Assembly: GCA_019894885.1 (NCBI GenBank)
Contig: JAGXNP010000012.1
Coordinates: 1-33,629, forward strand
Direction of reading: 5' to 3'
DNA from: Promethearchaeota archaeon
GTDB taxonomy: Archaea; Asgardarchaeota; Lokiarchaeia; Sigyniarchaeales; SOKP01
Length of the DNA stretch: 33,629 nucleotides
The translations under genes and the position numbers were made by a program. Shown piece after piece: positions 18,957 through 28,821 of this stretch (within the stretch, counting starts at the first letter, position 1; each line of letters starts with the position of its first letter). The notes beneath the pieces are model-generated. The model saw only the letters and a program-made list of their open reading frames with translations. It had not been told where the DNA came from and did not search any database.

Positions 18957-19847
18957 CTATAAATTTCTAAGATATTCCACCAAATAACTGGATAAAGTGT
19001 TTTCTATGTTTTTAATTCCTCTAAATCCGGGAAAATCGTTTAAATCGATTAGATAAAAACGATTCTTATCTGTTAGTTTTATTAAATCAAATCCAAAAAT
19101 TTTAAGGTTAAGTTCTTTTGATAAGATTCTGGCAAATTCTCTAATTTCTTCAGATATTTTAAATTCTTTCCTTTTAATTTTGTCAACATCAATTTTACTT
19201 GGCTTATCTCTTAAAAATATATAAATCGGATTTTCTCTTATAATGCCAAATACTTTATCTCCTATTACATAAACCTTTCTTTCAAATCCATCACACTCAA
19301 TAAATTTCTGAATATAAACATCGTAATATAAAAATTCTTTATATTTTTCGCAAAAAATGCCTATATCATCAACTTTTTTCACTAAAAAATTAAATCTATT
19401 GTATTTATCATGCTGGTAATGGCTTTTGATAACAATAGGGAGCTTAGGTAAAGCCCATTTCTTAAATTTTGAGAGATCTGCAAGATTATTGTTCCAAGAA
19501 TTAGGTAAAAGTATTTTTTTCTTAATTTGAGGATAAATTTTAAAGATTCTTCTTAAAGCATAATCAAGTGAGATTTTGTTCTTACACATTAATACGGTAT
19601 CGACACTATGTAAAGTAGGAATTTGATGCGTCTTTGCATAGTGGAGCAAATCGATTGAACACTCGTTTCTAACCTTTACTATAATAAAATTAGCTTGACT
19701 TATTGATTTAGGCATTCTTGAAAGATTAAAAAAATTCTTTGTAGGATCATGAAATGAGACTTCTATATCCGGATTTTGTTTTAACTTTTTTATAACGCTT
19801 GCAATTATTTCATGGTCTTGTCTAGCAGAAAATACAACTTTTTTCAT
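18957..19847 (-). CDS. ATP-grasp kinase A, inositol-phosphate kinase (ITPK)-like
   Basis: 296 aa, soluble. Layout: N-terminal Rossmann-like part (1-90), linker, then ATP-grasp. ATP-lysine candidate K141 in LPIVIKSHY; the strand and turn VYIQKFIECDGFERKVYVIGDKVF resemble the ITPK 'YKVFVVGE' element; metal residues D254 (FGFDLIK), D268 and N270 (LIDLNDFPGF). In eukaryotic ITPK the last motif is DINxFPGY, very like LIDLNDFPGFRG. RimK-type peptide ligases share the fold, so the substrate is not certain. Its gene is convergent with UppP and divergent from MFS. It is one of four such genes in 6.7 kb. Confidence 0.75.
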   Translation of the reverse strand: MKKVVFSARQDHEIIASVIKKLKQNPDIEVSFHDPTKNFFNLSRMPKSISQANFIIVKVRNECSIDLLHYAKTHQIPTLHSVDTVLMCKNKISLDYALRRIFKIYPQIKKKILLPNSWNNNLADLSKFKKWALPKLPIVIKSHYQHDKYNRFNFLVKKVDDIGIFCEKYKEFLYYDVYIQKFIECDGFERKVYVIGDKVFGIIRENPIYIFLRDKPSKIDVDKIKRKEFKISEEIREFARILSKELNLKIFGFDLIKLTDKNRFYLIDLNDFPGFRGIKNIENTLSSYLVEYLRNL

Positions 19848-19931
19848 GTTTTAAAATCTATTTAAAAAATGTTTTTTTACATTAAAAATTATATTTAATT
19901 ACCATTTTTAATTAAAAACAGGAAATTAAAT

Positions 19932-21203
19932 TTGACAGAAAAAGGTTTCAGTAAATTTCTTAAGAAACAAGTGTTATTAATTGGATTGCTCTACATGGGA
20001 GATTACCTTTTCTTCTTCTTCGAGCAAAATTATTTCAATACCTACATAGATCACGTACTTTTTTTACCAGAACTATATATCTCGGTCATGGTTATGTCAT
20101 CGGCGATAATAGGTCTCATAACAATGTTTGTATGGGGGATTATAAGCGATAATACGAGGACTAAATTTGGTCGTAGACGACCGTATTTACTTTTGGGAAT
20201 CATAGCCGGGATTGCTATGATGTTTTTTGGATTGTCATTGGATTATAGATTGTGCTTAATAATTGATGTTTTTATTATCGGCATTGCTTCAAATGCATTT
20301 CTCGTAGCTGAAAGAGCTCTTATTCCAGATACCGTCGAAGTTGAAAAAAGGGGGCAAGCAAATGGTATCATTAATTCAATTAGCTACATTGGGCTATTAA
20401 TTGGTGTAGCATTCCTATTAATAGGAAATGAGCTATTTGGAATACCTGATCCTCGCCCAGGTGCTGATGGAACGATTATTACACAGGAAGGGCATATTAT
20501 ATTATTATCTGTAGGTGGACTTCTCTTTGCTATAGTTGGAATTATTGGTTTTTTCTTTATAAAAGAAAAACGTGTTTCTGAGCTTCCTGAGAAGAAAAAG
20601 TTTTTTGCAGAGCTAAAGAAGACTTTTAATTATGGAGAGTTGAAAACCCAAAAAGAATTCTTTAAAATTCTTGCTGCATTTCTCATATTCCAAACTGGAA
20701 TTTCTTCGATTATGCCGTTCTTATTTATTTTCATCTTCGATCAAGGGCTCACAACTCTACAACTCTTATTAGGGATCGTTATCGCATTTCCATTTGTATT
20801 CCTCGCAAGTATTTATTTAGGAAGGTTGTCAGATAAATTTGGAAGAAAAAGATTCGTACCTATATCTATAATTATAGTAAGCATAGGATTTCTTATAATG
20901 CCATTTGCATCAGGTAATTACATCTTGTTTATGATTGGCTTGCCCTTCGTGTTATTAGGTGTTTTAGCATTAGTAACACCTTTAAATGCTTGGTCTCAAG
21001 ATTTATTACCAGAAGAAAAGCGTGGAAAATTTACAGGAATATTTAATATTGTTAACACAGTATCTCAGATTATAGGTTCTATCGTAGGAGGCATAGTTGC
21101 TATGGTATTTGGCATTCCTTGGATATTCGTACTAGTTCCTATCTTTTTTCTAGCCTCGATTCCAGTATTTTTGAAAGTAAAAGAAACTGTAAACAGAGAA
21201 TAA
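19932..21203 (+). CDS. MFS transporter, GPH-like (sugar/cation symporter type)
   Basis: 423 aa with 12 predicted helices and the MFS loop between helices 2 and 3 as SDNTRTKFGRRRPYLLLG, the form seen in the glycoside-pentoside-hexuronide and SLC45-type sugar carriers. A second copy, LSDKFGRKRF, sits in the C-terminal half. A TTG start at 19932 is preceded by AGGAAA. Flanked by ITPK-like genes and followed by the inositol-phosphate synthase, so it could import inositol, a sugar or a metabolite of this pathway. Its substrate is unknown. Confidence 0.88.
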   Translation: MTEKGFSKFLKKQVLLIGLLYMGDYLFFFFEQNYFNTYIDHVLFLPELYISVMVMSSAIIGLITMFVWGIISDNTRTKFGRRRPYLLLGIIAGIAMMFFGLSLDYRLCLIIDVFIIGIASNAFLVAERALIPDTVEVEKRGQANGIINSISYIGLLIGVAFLLIGNELFGIPDPRPGADGTIITQEGHIILLSVGGLLFAIVGIIGFFFIKEKRVSELPEKKKFFAELKKTFNYGELKTQKEFFKILAAFLIFQTGISSIMPFLFIFIFDQGLTTLQLLLGIVIAFPFVFLASIYLGRLSDKFGRKRFVPISIIIVSIGFLIMPFASGNYILFMIGLPFVLLGVLALVTPLNAWSQDLLPEEKRGKFTGIFNIVNTVSQIIGSIVGGIVAMVFGIPWIFVLVPIFFLASIPVFLKVKETVNRE

Positions 21204-21676
21204 TATCAGAACGAAATAGAACTTCTATCTTTTTTTTTAATTGTATAGAAAAGAAAGCATTTCCATAATTCCAGCTCATATGCAATATGCCTAGTTCCTA
21301 TAATCAGTTTTTTCTAATTCGCAGATTATTGCCCTTATTATCTCGAGATCCTTGCCAAAATCAGTATAACCTTTTTAATCACCTTTATACGAATGAGAAT
21401 AGTTTATGTGATAAGATAAGGCGGAGGAAATTTTCTTTTCATCTGCAATCATTATTTTTACTTATTTCCGTAATTTATGATTAAGATATTAAATGCCAAA
21501 AAATCTAATAATTTTGATATCTCCAATCAAATAATTTCAATAGTATAATAAGTGTCATAAATCTAATATATTGAAATTATCTCCATAGTTAAGTTTAAGA
21601 TGATTTAAATAATATCTTTTTAATATAGATACTATATAAAGGAGAACACTAAAAATTTAGTAATAAGGTGAATGAA
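21204..21676. other. Intergenic region upstream of MIPS
   Basis: About 470 bases after the MFS gene. A short open frame at 21287-21484 has no recognisable protein and unusual composition and is not called. A TATA-like CTATATAAAG at about 21632-21641 lies 35-45 bases before the MIPS start. Nothing else supported. Confidence 0.5.
21632..21641 (+). promoter_or_regulatory. TATA box of the inositol-phosphate synthase gene
   Basis: CTATATAAAG, then a short leader containing GGTGA at 21667-21671, a strong archaeal ribosome site five bases before the ATG at 21677. This site decides the MIPS start. Confidence 0.6.
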
Positions 21677-22771
21677 ATGACCAAAAAGGATATAAAAGTC
21701 GCAATAATCGGAGTAGGTGATGTTGCAAGTGCATTAGTTGCGGGAGTCGAGAATTACAAGAAGAATCCAGATAAGATCATAGGTTTATTACCAGAAATTA
21801 CTCAATATGGAGTAGAAGATATAAAATTTGTCCTCGGTATTGATGTTAATGCTAATAAAATTGGCAGAGATCTAAGTGAAGCTATTTTTATGGAACCAAA
21901 TTGTAATATGATAACATTTGAGCCGGAATTTTTAGATGCTCCTGTTCTAAAAGGTCCAATCTTAGATGGTTTAAAAAGTAATATCAAAAACATCATACCT
22001 GTTGATGTTAATCAAAAACTTGTGGACATCGTTGAAGAGTTTAGAAAACGGGATGTTGATGTTGCTGTTATTTTGCTCCCAACAGGCTGTCATGAAGCGG
22101 TTAAATTCTACGCTATGGCAAGCCTTGAAGCTGGAGCTTGTGTGGTTAACGGAATGCCTTCATATGTAGTTAAAGATTCAGAAATTGTTGAAAAAGCCCT
22201 AAAATTAGAACTTCCATTGATCGGTGACGATGTTAAGTCTCAAATAGGAGCTACTATAATACATCGATCGCTAGCAAATCTCTTTCCAATGCGGGGCGCA
22301 ATTCTTGACAGAACTATACAGCTCGATTGGGGAGGATCATCGGATTTCTGTAATTTATTAACCCCTCAATCTAATGGTGAATTAATATATGAGCAAGGAA
22401 AACGCCAATCTAAAACTGAAGCGGTAGTAGCAAATCTACAGAATAAAGATGATGTGGAATGTCGAATATCCGCTGTAGATTATATCCCATTCTTAAAGAA
22501 TCAAAAGGAGGCTTACATGAGATTAGAAGGAAGAATTTTTGGTGGCGCTCCCGTGCGAGTCGATATTACCATGTTCGTAGAAGATGGTAATAATTCCGCA
22601 GGAATTATAGCTGATTGCATTAGAGTTTCAAAAATCGCTAAAGATCGCAAAATTGGGGGGATTTTACAATCAGCCTGCTCATTCTTTAATAAGCACCCTC
22701 CAGAACAATTAGATGATTATGTCGCTAAAAAACGACTTATAGAATTTTTAGAAAATAAAAGAGAACGATAA
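21677..22771 (+). CDS. Archaeal-type myo-inositol-1(3)-phosphate synthase
   Basis: 364 aa. The start ATG at 21677 is chosen because GGTGA sits five bases upstream; a GTG at 21668 is the alternative. The NAD loop is AIIGVGDVASALVAG (9-23). Conserved MIPS motifs include DDVKSQIGATIIHR (184-197, K187 at the catalytic centre), VVNGMPSYV and GGAPVRVDITMFVEDGNNSAG. The enzyme converts glucose-6-phosphate to inositol monophosphate by NAD-dependent oxidation, aldol cyclisation and reduction. Archaea use it for inositol phospholipids or compatible solutes. Here the neighbours are four ITPK-like ATP-grasp genes, which points instead, or also, to phosphorylated inositols. Confidence 0.95.
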   Translation: MTKKDIKVAIIGVGDVASALVAGVENYKKNPDKIIGLLPEITQYGVEDIKFVLGIDVNANKIGRDLSEAIFMEPNCNMITFEPEFLDAPVLKGPILDGLKSNIKNIIPVDVNQKLVDIVEEFRKRDVDVAVILLPTGCHEAVKFYAMASLEAGACVVNGMPSYVVKDSEIVEKALKLELPLIGDDVKSQIGATIIHRSLANLFPMRGAILDRTIQLDWGGSSDFCNLLTPQSNGELIYEQGKRQSKTEAVVANLQNKDDVECRISAVDYIPFLKNQKEAYMRLEGRIFGGAPVRVDITMFVEDGNNSAGIIADCIRVSKIAKDRKIGGILQSACSFFNKHPPEQLDDYVAKKRLIEFLENKRER

Positions 22772-22803
22772 AAAGATACTCAAAATCTAATACATTTGGA
22801 ATT

Positions 22804-23715
22804 TTAGCTCTTAGCTTTAACAAATGCGTTTCGATACAATTCTCTCATATTTATTAAATTGTACATATGATCTGAAATTAAACTTACTCCTTCTGGTACG
22901 TTATTAAAGCTAGGAAAATCGTTTATATCCACGATGTAAGGTCCCTTCTCGGTCATTATGTAGTCTATTCCGAAAACTGACATACCAAGCTTTCGACCTA
23001 ATCGAATAATCCTCTTCTTTAATGGTTCTTCAACTGGAATCCTAATATGGAGGAGTTCTAGAGGAGATAATTGATTAATTTGCTGTAAACGATTATGAGA
23101 GGTTATTGAAACAACCCAATTACCTATCACATAAATTTTATAGAGAACATCGTGTTCACCTAAATATTCTTGGAAGAATAAATCTCCCTCATTATAATTT
23201 TTTATCATTTCAAGTAATTCTCTATGTGTTTTAGCGATACCGATTATTCTATCGTTCTTAGGCAAATCTGGAATGTTATGAGAATTTAGTTTTACTATAA
23301 TTGGTATACCTTTTTGAGAAATATGAATTGCTTCTAATTTAGTTGAAAAAGAGTGTGGTGTTAGAATTTTTTTAGAATTTTGTTTAATAAAATTAAAAGT
23401 GTTTTGCCTACTCTCACATATTTGAATGGATTCTAGCGTGTTAAGAATAGGTATTTCAGGACAAGTTTTTTTAACAATTCGATAGATTTTTTCATTTAAC
23501 TCTTGTGTTGTCAGTTTTACAATCAAAAACGAAATCGGATATTTTTTTAAGCGCTTTTCTAGATATTTAGTATTAAAGGACTCTAATCCGTTTTTCATTA
23601 AATTAACTATCGTGATATTATAATTTTTAATGAAGAACTTCTTGATATTTTCTAAAACTTCAAGATCTCTATTACAAATGGCTCCAATATATTTTCTTTT
23701 TATAGTATTCGCCAT
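22804..23715 (-). CDS. ATP-grasp kinase B, inositol-phosphate kinase (ITPK)-like
   Basis: 303 aa. ATP-lysine candidate K142 (IPIIVKLNS); then LFFQEYLGEHDVLYKIYVIG, very like ITPK 'VLYKVFVVGE'; metal site D251 (VFGIDYI), D263 and N265 in IVDINDFPSFNNVPEG, close to eukaryotic ITPK DINAFPGYEGV. The N-terminal part reads as a Rossmann-like lobe (YIGAICNRDLEVLENIKKFF). Of the four paralogues, B matches ITPK best by eye. It is convergent with MIPS (32 bases between stops). TATA-like TTTATATA is about 45 bases upstream of its ATG. Confidence 0.78.
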   Translation of the reverse strand: MANTIKRKYIGAICNRDLEVLENIKKFFIKNYNITIVNLMKNGLESFNTKYLEKRLKKYPISFLIVKLTTQELNEKIYRIVKKTCPEIPILNTLESIQICESRQNTFNFIKQNSKKILTPHSFSTKLEAIHISQKGIPIIVKLNSHNIPDLPKNDRIIGIAKTHRELLEMIKNYNEGDLFFQEYLGEHDVLYKIYVIGNWVVSITSHNRLQQINQLSPLELLHIRIPVEEPLKKRIIRLGRKLGMSVFGIDYIMTEKGPYIVDINDFPSFNNVPEGVSLISDHMYNLINMRELYRNAFVKAKS

Positions 23716-24059
23716 TTAAAAAACCCTTTCAATTTGATTTCTTAAAAACAAATTAAAATATATAAATGTATTGAAAAGTACGTTTGAGTAATACTTCTAT
23801 ATTCAAAGGAAGTTAAAATAAAAGTATATTAAATTCATAATAAAATCACTGATGCTATTTGAATCTTAGATTATAAAAATAGAAACTTAAACGAAAAATA
23901 AGGGAAAAACCTTAGAAGAAATCCAAAAACAGAGATAGAACAAGGAGAATTTAAATTAATTTCTGTTTTTTATTATATACTTTAAAATAACATAGTTTTA
24001 TACTATTCATATGTAAATGATTTTATTTTCATTGATTGCGTTGAGTTAGGGTAGGTTAT
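23716..24059. other. Divergent promoter region between kinases B and C
   Basis: 344 AT-rich bases. A TATA-like TTTATATA (minus strand, about 23757-23764) serves kinase B. Plus-strand TTTTATAC at about 23996 could serve C. A 9-base inverted repeat, AAAAACAGA (23925-23933) and TCTGTTTTT (23962-23970), lies between them and might be an operator or hairpin; at this AT content it could also be chance. No gene seen. Confidence 0.5.
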
Positions 24060-24878
24060 TTGATAAAAATAGGATTAATAACAGATAATTACCATTTAGA
24101 AAAAAAATCGATTCAATTTTTAAAATATGCTAACACTATATCAGATGTTTCAATATACCTCGAAGAAGACTATATGATAGATTTCTCGAATTATAATTTT
24201 GATGAAGATATTTTTTTTGTGAAGGCAAAAGGAGACCTAGTTTTAAATTTAGTGAAATTAATTGAGAAAGAAACTACCATTCCAGTGATTAATTCTTCAA
24301 GGAGTATTTCTCTTGCTTTCAATAGATTTTTAAATAGCATTGTTTTAAGAAAAGCCGGTATTCAAGTTCCTAATTTTTCGCTAAATCCAGTAGGACAATC
24401 ACCACCATTCAATGAATACATAATCAAAAATATTATAGACAAAGAAAATTATGCATTTAATCCTCAAATTCAGAAAAAAGAGGGATATTTAAGAGTAGTG
24501 GATATTCGTGCTATTGATGAATCAAGCGGAAATTACCCAAAATACACACATTTTTATTTTCAAGATTTTATAAAGAGTAAATGGGAATATAAAGTGTATC
24601 TAATTGGCGACGACATTTTTTATTTCAAGCAATTACCAGTTTTAATAAATCCTGATAAAATGAAATCTAGAATAAAAATAGAGAAAATTCCCGAATTAAC
24701 AGAAATAGCTTATAATGCTACTGAAGCAATGGGATTAAAATTAAGTTCAATGGATTTCTTAAAATCAAAAGATGGAAAATTTTTCTTGACTGATATAAAT
24801 TCATCCCCCAATTTTAATTACATAAAGAATGGTCCTAAAATTATAGGAGATTATTTAATCAAACAAGCTAAAATATAA
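24060..24878 (+). CDS. ATP-grasp kinase C, ITPK/RimK-like
   Basis: 272 aa from a TTG start at 24060, preceded by AGGGTAGGTTA. N-terminal lobe MIKIGLITDN, the shared hinge TTIPVINSSRSISLAFNRF (as IPTLHSVDT in A and IPILNTLES in B), then YFQDFIKSKWEYKVYLIGDD. The metal residues are D232 (SSMDFL), D245 and N247 (LTDINSSPNF). The ATP-lysine area is poorly aligned (AFNPQIQKKEG), so A- and B-type activity is less sure. The gene is 14 bases ahead of D on the same strand and likely forms a two-gene operon with it. Substrate is unknown. Confidence 0.7.
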   Translation: MIKIGLITDNYHLEKKSIQFLKYANTISDVSIYLEEDYMIDFSNYNFDEDIFFVKAKGDLVLNLVKLIEKETTIPVINSSRSISLAFNRFLNSIVLRKAGIQVPNFSLNPVGQSPPFNEYIIKNIIDKENYAFNPQIQKKEGYLRVVDIRAIDESSGNYPKYTHFYFQDFIKSKWEYKVYLIGDDIFYFKQLPVLINPDKMKSRIKIEKIPELTEIAYNATEAMGLKLSSMDFLKSKDGKFFLTDINSSPNFNYIKNGPKIIGDYLIKQAKI

Positions 24879-24892
24879 GAATAAGAGTAACT

Positions 24893-25675
24893 ATGAATAT
24901 TGGAATTTTATCTAAAAAGAAAGGCAAATTAATTAGGGAAATTCGAAAATGCCTTGAAAATAATGGGCATAGAGTAAAAATTTTTACGCTAAATGATTTA
25001 TTTGTCAATGAAATGTTACTTAATAAGGATTTTTATATATTGAAATCTAAGAACTTACTTTATCTTTATGCAGGTTATTTTTTAGAAGCTAATATGATCC
25101 CCGTCATTCCAAATACTAATACCAGTTATGTCCATAAAGATCGTGTTGAATCGTATTTTTCTATGAAAAACTTAGGGTTGTTATGTCCAAAGATTTTTAT
25201 GGGCACCCTTAAAACTCTTAAAAGTCAACTTAAAGAGTCAAGCTTTCCTCTTATTTCAAAACCTATTTTTGGTTCTGGAAGTAAAGGTGTCAAAGTATAT
25301 AATTCTTTTCAAGATTTTAATACTCCAACTGAAAATTATCTCTATCTCGAAAATTTTATCAAAGGGACACACTACTTAGCTTATTTTATAGAAAATGAAA
25401 TCTGTATATGTGAAAAAAGACCTCTCTCAAATGAACATCAAGCTACTGAATTAATCAAATCCGATAAAGAAATAGAAAAATATCTTATAAAATGGAAGGA
25501 AAAATATAATCTGTTATTTGGACATCTTGATCTAGTTAGAGAAACTAAAACAAATAAATTATATGTAGTAGATGCTGGTACTTTTCCGGAATTCTCTAAT
25601 TGGAAATGTGATACGGATCCTGCTTTGAAAATAAGTGATTTAATATTAAATAAATATCACGAAGTAAGGAAATAG
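24893..25675 (+). CDS. ATP-grasp protein D, RimK/ITPK-like, altered metal site
   Basis: 260 aa. It has the most typical ATP-grasp glycine loop of the four: K123 in ISKPIFGSGSKGVKV (GSGSKG 127-132), then YLENFIKG, D213 (FGHLDLV) and D227. The third metal ligand, normally Asn in D-x-N, is Gly229 (VVDAGTFPEF), so catalysis may be weakened or the ligand replaced. It may partner C as a regulatory or specialised subunit. It follows C after 14 bases with AGAGTAACT before the ATG. A diverged RimK-type ligase is an alternative. Confidence 0.65.
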   Translation: MNIGILSKKKGKLIREIRKCLENNGHRVKIFTLNDLFVNEMLLNKDFYILKSKNLLYLYAGYFLEANMIPVIPNTNTSYVHKDRVESYFSMKNLGLLCPKIFMGTLKTLKSQLKESSFPLISKPIFGSGSKGVKVYNSFQDFNTPTENYLYLENFIKGTHYLAYFIENEICICEKRPLSNEHQATELIKSDKEIEKYLIKWKEKYNLLFGHLDLVRETKTNKLYVVDAGTFPEFSNWKCDTDPALKISDLILNKYHEVRK

Positions 25676-26917: not shown

Positions 26918-28030
26918 CTAAGAGACTGGCTCGTACAAGATTCCTAATTCGTCAGCATAATTTTTCACTTCATGAATTTCTCCCATTGATGGCCTTCTAT
27001 TTATTTCTTGATATTTGTGTGATAAATATTCGGGTCTGAATTGCTGCATAATGTTAACAACACACATCGGTACTTCTTTCGCAATAAAATCTAAAATTGG
27101 TTTAGAGCAACATTCTATGTGATTAGGCATAACTAAGTGTCGGATTATTATTTCTCCGCTTCCAGCGTTGTGAATTCTTTTTAAATTGCGAGTTACTACA
27201 TCGAAATAGCTTGTAATTCCTGAATATTTTTCAGCACAGATATTATTGCCGTACTTAAAATCAGGTAACCAAAAATCCATTAAGTCAACGAGTAAAGATA
27301 GAGATTCTTCCGTTAAGTAAAAATTAGAATTCCAGAGTTGTGTAATGTTTGAAGTTTGATGCTGAAGGTTTCCCAAAATTGTATGGATGTTCGGAATAGG
27401 ATCGCCTCCAACATAATTGATATTAATCGCACCTTTCTCTACTAATTTATCAGCAAGATTAGCAAGTTGAATTGAATCAGTTTTTCGAGCTATATCCTCA
27501 ATATTTCTCCTTTTTTTCCATGACTGAGATATATCGTAATTTTGGCAAAATACACAACTAAAATTACATCCTTGGAAAAATATTGTACCGCTAGGTATTA
27601 ACGGAGCTTCTTCCCCCGTATGAAGAAAAGCAGACGATACATAAGAATCCTTAGGAATATAACAAAAACCAGTTTCACCATCAGCTCGATTAACTTGACA
27701 TCGTCTTTCGCAAAAACAGCAATTTTCGAGATATTTCCATGCTAGCTTTTCAACCAAACTAATATAATTCTTATTGTATACTTGACGGTTTTCGATAATT
27801 TCAGTGAATTTATTCAGTAAGAGATTAAACTCCTTAGATTTTTCTACTAACAAATTCTCTAAGTTTTTAATTGAATCATTAGTATCAAAGTCACATTCTA
27901 TACTTTTTGCGATTATATACCGTGCAATTTCTTTATCATCAATGATACTTCTATATCTGGCAAATCGTTTTCGAATTGCTTTATTTTTCCAGACCGCCTC
28001 TGAATCAGGTCTAAGAAACCTAAAAACCAT
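26918..28030 (-). CDS. Radical SAM protein, PflA/YjjW-like, with extra N-terminal Cys cluster
   Basis: 370 aa. The radical SAM cluster is C155-X3-C159-X2-C162 (CNFSCVFCQN), then GGDP. Upstream, C104, C105, C107, C111 and C123 (CCFCERRC, GFC) suggest a second iron-sulfur or zinc site. The first 100 residues are helical and without homology I recognise. It resembles pyruvate-formate-lyase-activating-like (COG1313-type) enzymes, but no pflB or glycyl-radical gene is in the window. Cytosolic. It follows the FKBP start by 71 bases on the same strand, probably as an independent transcript. Substrate unknown. Confidence 0.82.
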   Translation of the reverse strand: MVFRFLRPDSEAVWKNKAIRKRFARYRSIIDDKEIARYIIAKSIECDFDTNDSIKNLENLLVEKSKEFNLLLNKFTEIIENRQVYNKNYISLVEKLAWKYLENCCFCERRCQVNRADGETGFCYIPKDSYVSSAFLHTGEEAPLIPSGTIFFQGCNFSCVFCQNYDISQSWKKRRNIEDIARKTDSIQLANLADKLVEKGAININYVGGDPIPNIHTILGNLQHQTSNITQLWNSNFYLTEESLSLLVDLMDFWLPDFKYGNNICAEKYSGITSYFDVVTRNLKRIHNAGSGEIIIRHLVMPNHIECCSKPILDFIAKEVPMCVVNIMQQFRPEYLSHKYQEINRRPSMGEIHEVKNYADELGILYEPVS

Positions 28031-28092: not shown

Positions 28093-28821
28093 CTAGATCT
28101 CAAAACTGAGCCATTTAATAATGTTAGATAGAAATGGTATATTATCTCCTGCGTCTAATCCAAAATCATCTTCAATAAGCCAATCAGATGAACCAATAGT
28201 TACACATCTCCCACTGAAAAACTCGCTAACAACACAGATAGGGACAATACCAATACTTTCTATGTCATCGTCAACGAGATATTTAAATTCTGCTTTTTCT
28301 GAAGTCACTATTATATCTTCAACTTCTTCTTCAGTTATCGTAAAAAATGTACAGTTAGGGAGGACGACTTCAGTTATACCAGTAGTAATCGGATGGATAA
28401 ATAGGTCATTTATTAACACATTTTGTTTATTTACTAAAAAATGTGATGGTGACTCCTGTATAATTCCATTCCAAAATCTTCGCACTCCAGTCATTTTATA
28501 TAATACTCTGATAGACCCCATCTTCATTGGAACATCGCGATCTCCTCCTTCTCCAGTAGTTAAAAAAAGTCCCCCGCCTTCTCCAACATATCGCTTAATT
28601 GCTAATAATTCGTCTTTGGTGAATTTATCGTCTTTGCCATCCTTAGTTTGTTGAATATTTCCTATAAATAAAACGTCATAATCTTCAAGTAAATCGTAAT
28701 CAATAGGACCTTCATTCTTGTCTATGTATTCGACCTCATACTCATCATCCCCCAAAGAAAAATCGGGAAATTCCTCTATTTGTTCTCGATGAGATAAATC
28801 CACTATGATACTGTAAGGCAT
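28093..28821 (-). CDS. Class I glutamine-amidotransferase-like (GIFT/DUF4350-type) protein
   Basis: 242 aa. The central LLEDYDVLFIGNI and LAIKRYVGEGGGLFLTTGEGGD reproduce the flavodoxin-like core of GATase1/GIFT domains, with the nucleophile elbow replaced (TTGEGGD, no Cys). The family is non-catalytic in many cases and occurs in IFT52 and in archaeal and bacterial proteins of similar length. C-terminal part ends in a helix (NIPFLSNIIKWLSFEI). It is acidic and soluble. Could bind a nucleotide or peptide. Followed on the minus strand by the radical SAM gene 62 bases on. Confidence 0.6.
   Translation of the reverse strand: MPYSIIVDLSHREQIEEFPDFSLGDDEYEVEYIDKNEGPIDYDLLEDYDVLFIGNIQQTKDGKDDKFTKDELLAIKRYVGEGGGLFLTTGEGGDRDVPMKMGSIRVLYKMTGVRRFWNGIIQESPSHFLVNKQNVLINDLFIHPITTGITEVVLPNCTFFTITEEEVEDIIVTSEKAEFKYLVDDDIESIGIVPICVVSEFFSGRCVTIGSSDWLIEDDFGLDAGDNIPFLSNIIKWLSFEI

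Follow-up and report, generated by a model that had tools for sequence, protein, structure and literature searches.

A 6.7-kb segment of the Lokiarchaeial contig JAGXNP010000012.1 (the whole stretch that we analysed, 33,629 nucleotides, is referred to as the window) carries one gene for inositol-phosphate synthase (MIPS), four ATP-grasp genes, here called A to D, and a gene for an MFS transporter. Our best reading of this locus, to which we assign a probability of about 0.6, is a MIPS-fed, soluble inositol-phosphate kinase pathway. It most likely comprises two good kinase candidates (A and B), one plausible candidate (C) and one ligase-like or degenerate partner (D). Inositol polyphosphates are viewed as a signaling and phosphate-sensing system of eukaryotes. 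An earlier sequence-only reading had counted four ATP-grasp proteins of 260-303 amino acids within 6.7 kb, with which both the open reading frames and Pfam agree. The source genome (3.2 Mb in 279 contigs, of which the window is number 33; 89% complete) has Candidatus Lokiarchaeota/Lokiarchaeia assemblies as its closest named relatives.

A (296 amino acids; 18957..19847, reverse strand) and B (303 amino acids; 22804..23715, reverse strand) score 47.1 and 38.6 bits against the ITPK model PF05770, above its gathering cut-off of 23 bits; A also scores 25.8 bits against RimK (cut-off 21 bits). For each of A, B, C and D we built an alignment from relatives and searched it against solved structures. 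The first nine matches of A were ITPKs, with expectation values (E) of 3e-12 to 3e-9, and RimK came next at 1.4e-6. For B, ITPKs were matched at 1.9e-6 and RimK at 0.13. Genuine RimK proteins of Lokiarchaeia, taken as controls, had no PF05770 match and reached 134 bits with the RimK model. The final motif D-[IL]-N-D-F-P and the YVIG element, both singled out by the sequence-only reading, are indeed present: the motif reads DLNDFP in A (D268-L-N-D-F-P273; 19029-19046, reverse strand) and DINDFP in B (from D263; 22912-22929, reverse strand), and YVIG occurs in both. These profile and motif matches place A and B in the ITPK family.

Maize ITPK1 uses K198 and Y200 to hold the 5-phosphate of its substrate (PMC7614388). 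When the A profile is aligned with the maize chain, K191-V-Y193 of A (19269-19277, reverse strand) falls on this pair. Lys-x-Tyr is invariant in A (39/39), in B (32/32; K193-x-Y195 at 23131-23139, reverse strand) and in C (36/36; K178-x-Y180 at 24591-24599, forward strand), and D lacks its Lys in all members (0/34). The residue at the Lys position is Arg in RimK-like archaeal proteins, in ArgX and in the graspetide ligase CdnC. An Arg of A (R204) lies 13 residues past K191, the same spacing as that between K199 and R212 of human ITPK1 (HsITPK1; PMC12077091).

C (272 amino acids, TTG start; 24060..24878, forward strand) is RimK/LysX-like by profile and ITPK-like at the Lys-x-Tyr pair that would hold a substrate phosphate. 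It scores 23.3 bits on RimK and 18.3 bits on PF05770, under the cut-off, and its profile finds LysX/ArgX (ArgX at 1.7e-4) ahead of ITPK (0.04). The AlphaFold model of C is moderate, with a predicted local distance difference test (pLDDT) score of 82. In a Foldseek search it returned LysX, Vip1, PPIP5K2, RimK and maize ITPK1 intermixed within two orders of magnitude, with template-modeling (TM) scores of at most 0.51 among the matches listed. Despite the weak profile, the Lys-x-Tyr pair groups C with A and B, and we therefore keep C as a kinase candidate; a kinase role is plausible.

D (260 amino acids; 24893..25675, forward strand) scores 28.9 bits on ATP-grasp_3 and does not match PF05770. 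Its profile finds ArgX at 9e-6 and human ITPK1 at 0.05. The AlphaFold2 model is confident (pLDDT 92), and ArgX is its closest fold (TM 0.81, E 7e-17), followed by RimK (up to 0.79) and PPIP5K2 (0.71). In D, Gly stands where the metal motif D-x-N has Asn (D227-A-G229 at 25571-25579, forward strand), as in 33 of the 33 members with a letter there, and this loss of a metal ligand speaks against normal catalysis. The sequence-only reading had described all four proteins as ITPK-like. PF05770 and the solved structures bear this out for A and B and the signals for C are mixed, but for D the comparison of RimK-type ligases with ITPK went against it, ArgX/LysX being the better match in both sequence and fold, an outcome that the sequence-only reading had itself named as refuting.

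Could A to D instead be RimK/LysX-type amine or peptide ligases that build an inositol-containing or unrelated conjugate, with MIPS supplying the inositol head or being a mere neighbor? The ArgX/LysX likeness of D, the nearness of the C profile to LysX/ArgX and the score of A above the RimK cut-off all fit such a scheme. However, A and B are closer to ITPK than to RimK, the ligase Arg is replaced by Lys in every A, B and C, and all four proteins fall far below the cut-off of 143.4 bits for the RimK subfamily TIGR00768 (A, 42.8; B, 25.6; C, 46.0; D, 28.9). Within the block we saw no peptide precursor, LysW-like carrier or amino-acid biosynthesis gene. We consider this explanation unlikely.

The MIPS gene (21668..22771, forward strand) lies where the sequence-only reading had placed it; it has a GTG start, and position 21677, given in that reading, is the first ATG. 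The protein scores 76 bits on PF01658 (cut-off 27). Its best match, over the full length, is the Mycobacterium tuberculosis MIPS 1gr0 (residues 7-361 against residues 14-365 of 1gr0; E 1.6e-78), and it keeps the active-site lysines expected for MIPS (K190, K245/K249 and K280). This is the single MIPS copy found in the source genome. The same genome encodes two proteins resembling archaetidylinositol-phosphate synthase, with 159 and 132 bits against a cut-off of 180, and two members of the inositol-monophosphatase family. No IPK-family inositol kinase was found in the source genome; a search of it for the SPX domain, the eukaryotic inositol-phosphate sensor, gave no match, but the controls were silent as well. 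In other Asgards, we observed tandem MIPS paralogue pairs about 40% and 33% identical to the window MIPS (loci L083:5384-7527, L084:4847-7034 and L046:12981-16456). Genome G034 has a tandem pair together with a cluster-type MIPS, three in a row.

Because the cluster MIPS is the only one found and two archaetidylinositol-phosphate-synthase-like genes accompany it in the genome, it probably also serves inositol lipids, and the proposal that phosphorylated inositols are made here without lipids is not one that can be claimed for the locus. Those lipid synthase-like proteins, the two monophosphatase-family genes and the sole MIPS would also suit a locus that serves inositol lipids outright, with MIPS feeding an archaetidylinositol-phosphate synthase encoded elsewhere and A to C phosphorylating the lipid headgroup in a phosphoinositide-like manner. 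Yet ITPKs are soluble and act on free inositol phosphates, as is established for the family, no lipid synthase and no pathway phosphatase is encoded in the cluster, and most other Asgards have MIPS without a PF05770 protein. A lipid-directed role for the whole locus thus appears improbable to us.

The order A-MIPS-B-C-D occurs together on one contig in 24 relatives and is repeated in named GTDB records. The gap between MIPS and B is 11-70 bp in 29/31 cases and that between C and D at most 23 bp in 32/33. As A to D, MIPS and the MFS protein are conserved in dozens of relatives at about 45-94% identity, the observation is not a chance one. In genus g3 (L057, L067), the genes for MFS, MIPS, B, C and D are cleanly missing between the FKBP-like gene and A, and the order is otherwise identical; in genus g8, three genomes that are 92-99% complete are without A, C and cluster MIPS alike. 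By hand count, 41 of 65 family genomes have cluster-type MIPS together with C and 20 have neither; at least some of the four discordant genomes are fragmented assemblies. The MIPS-B-C-D block has been gained and lost as a unit.

This behavior bears on the suggestion that the region merely rearranges slowly, MIPS being a lipid precursor enzyme only and A to D doing unrelated jobs. The flanks, from EF-2 to the proteasome beta subunit, are likewise syntenic, and A and B lie on the strand opposite to MIPS, C and D and so form no single operon with them. But MIPS, B, C and D come and go jointly inside this constant frame, also within genus g8, and the other MIPS type of the family, usually located elsewhere, brings no B, C or D with it. 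Chance synteny is accordingly the explanation that we find very unlikely. The claim that the locus makes phosphorylated inositols is in part supported by the family membership of A and B and the block-wise conservation with MIPS, which are consistent with such products. In a distant genome (family f3, G066; L073:9703-11400), only B-like and C-like genes are present, convergent and with no MIPS nearby, which suggests that B and C may work together.

In the kinase pathway that we favor, MIPS would convert glucose 6-phosphate to inositol monophosphate. A, B and, less certainly, C would act as ITPK-type ATP-grasp kinases, with ATP clasped by the two grasp lobes and held via the metal site D-x-N. 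Their invariant Lys-x-Tyr would grip a ring phosphate while an ATP phosphate passes to a ring hydroxyl, and the products would be soluble inositol bis- or polyphosphates. A single synthase with three such paralogues next to it would fit enzymes of differing position or substrate preference. Because its metal Asn is lost, D is less likely to be a kinase than to be a partner or regulatory subunit or else an altered ligase. A share of the MIPS product would go to archaetidylinositol lipids. The gene identities, the ITPK family membership of A and B, the conserved residues and the conserved linkage are shown; in this scheme we infer that the enzymes are active as kinases, what they act on and make, what D does and what purpose the pathway has in the cell. 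A stronger version, which we put forward tentatively and at clearly less than even odds, is a dedicated Lokiarchaeial soluble inositol-polyphosphate pathway of MIPS, three position-specific kinases (A, B and C) and a degenerate D that possibly senses nucleotides or inositol phosphates. To our knowledge, such a dedicated polyphosphate pathway, if true, would be the first encoded as one prokaryotic locus.

Several observations weigh against a MIPS-fed kinase pathway. Of the 201 profile positions of PF05770, A and B match only about 126-201, leaving the N-terminal half of the kinase domain unrecognised by this model, and the place of HsITPK1 H167 is N/R in A, not His. The cluster MIPS reads QLDWGGSSDF, with Asp and Ser, where the M. 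tuberculosis and Ari2 enzymes have QLNxGGN, and the cluster-type MIPS of relatives share this almost without exception. We take the two Asn of QLNxGGN to line the active site of yeast MIPS, and their replacement makes even the product of the cluster MIPS uncertain. The co-occurrence of MIPS and C (Fisher p about 1e-12) is uncorrected for kinship, and the synteny extends to housekeeping neighbors (EF-2, nicotinamidase, phosphatase, BacA, FKBP-like, AmrS-like and proteasome beta). A is found without MIPS-B-C-D in several genera, and genome G028, rated 100% complete, has A and no MIPS match, so A need not depend on the cluster MIPS; A is probably older in the lineage, as well as wider in distribution, than B to D and MIPS. 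A tree of A to D with eukaryotic ITPK fragments, built from a short alignment and suggestive only, has the ITPKs of human, maize and potato nested in the A family (support 79-90), and the approximately unbiased test rejects no placement of the eukaryotic ITPKs (p 0.17-0.26). Finally, accounts of the work of Desfougeres et al. 2019, which is credited with four Lokiarchaeota ITPK homologues and with a lipid-independent route that starts from Ins(3)P (as described in PMC7356102, PMC8024741 and PMC7695695), speak of assays on the human and Arabidopsis enzymes and not on archaeal ones.

The gene order in the window is low-molecular-weight phosphatase, BacA, A (reverse), MFS, MIPS, B (reverse), C, D and FKBP-like (reverse). 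MIPS and B are convergent with 32 bp between them, B and C are divergent, and C and D are spaced by 14 bp. With A and B opposite to the other genes, the locus consists of several transcription units, and co-transcription looks plausible for C and D only. A scan for sigma-70 promoters gave no more sites than shuffled sequences. The transporter (423 amino acids; 19932..21203, forward strand) had been called GPH-like. It is an MFS protein (MFS_1, 152 bits; MFS_2, 70 bits) and only weakly GPH-like, scoring 51 bits on TIGR00792 against a cut-off of 231, and it is not a constant partner, being absent from about half of the relatives' clusters. About ten Lokiarchaeial genomes have a 941-amino-acid protein without a Pfam match and a zinc alcohol dehydrogenase-like protein (337 amino acids) between MFS and MIPS (L036:11306-15190 and nine other loci), and other genomes have an unmatched 811-amino-acid protein or a GH2 glycosidase at this insertion place. 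Reverse-strand genes at 28093-28821 and 26918-28030 of the window, in a strongly conserved neighborhood of GATase-like, AmrS-like radical SAM and proteasome beta subunit genes, flank the cluster in nearly all relatives.

The gene set recurs in other Asgard genomes, as the sequence-only reading had proposed to check, and is limited to one order of the phylum. Of the phylum's 228 genomes, 56 have a PF05770 match; 54 of these belong to this family and the other two to a sister family within the same order. With the family so confined, vertical descent to eukaryotes and transfer are both possible, which calls for caution in evolutionary use. The two genomes of family f2 (L059:9050-10015 and L060:258-1229) carry single PF05770 proteins whose match spans profile positions 27-195, with His residues near the places of HsITPK1 H162 and H167; these are possibly more canonical archaeal ITPKs. 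No relatives of A or B were found in the viral collections searched.

Streptomyces and its relatives have two adjacent ATP-grasp genes at 30 loci (L142 and L144-L172; for example, L147:9506-15552), one with a B-like motif (DVNDFPSF) and one with an A-like motif (D[IV]NAFPG). In Kutzneria, the second of these genes also encodes an APH-like kinase domain as a fusion, and 2 kb downstream there is a MIPS gene; no other widely recurring neighbor of the pair was found among the actinobacterial loci listed. Since these pairs make up a separate clade in the tree, we rejected the view that they are orthologues of A and B, and the arrangement is thus a parallel one.

An Asgard group that keeps the synthase beside two to three ITPK-like genes may make soluble inositol phosphates of the kind known from eukaryotes. 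With the synthase and candidate kinases in one compact archaeal locus, the question of Asgard inositol polyphosphates becomes testable with four or five recombinant proteins. With ITPK homologues and an Ins(3)P-based route already on record since 2019, the idea of Lokiarchaeial inositol-phosphate kinases is not new. We found no description of a MIPS-ITPK cluster in the open literature searched, by which measure the MIPS linkage, the gain and loss of the block, the distinction of C and D and the restricted distribution are new.

Among known systems, ITPK (PF05770) shares with A and B a score over the cut-off, the best solved relatives, D-[IL]-N-D-F-P and the invariant Lys-x-Tyr. It differs in that only the C-terminal part is recognised in A and B, A is without an H167 equivalent, and several paralogues stand beside MIPS; A and B are candidate kinases. 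The RimK/LysX/ArgX ligases resemble D in fold and best sequence match and C in profile match, but the metal Asn is replaced by Gly in D and the ligase Arg by Lys in C, and both proteins are far under the family cut-offs. The mycobacterial-type inositol-3-phosphate synthase 1gr0 has the catalytic lysines of the cluster MIPS and matches it over the full length, whereas its QLNVGGNMDF is replaced by a conserved QLDWGGSSDF in the cluster type. The four ITPK1 homologues of Desfougeres et al. 2019, as others describe them, are probably related genes, or the same genes in related organisms; they are equal in number and come with the same lipid-independent proposal. Compared with those descriptions, the window locus is a conserved cluster in which C is ambiguous and D ligase-like, and its distribution is limited within the phylum.

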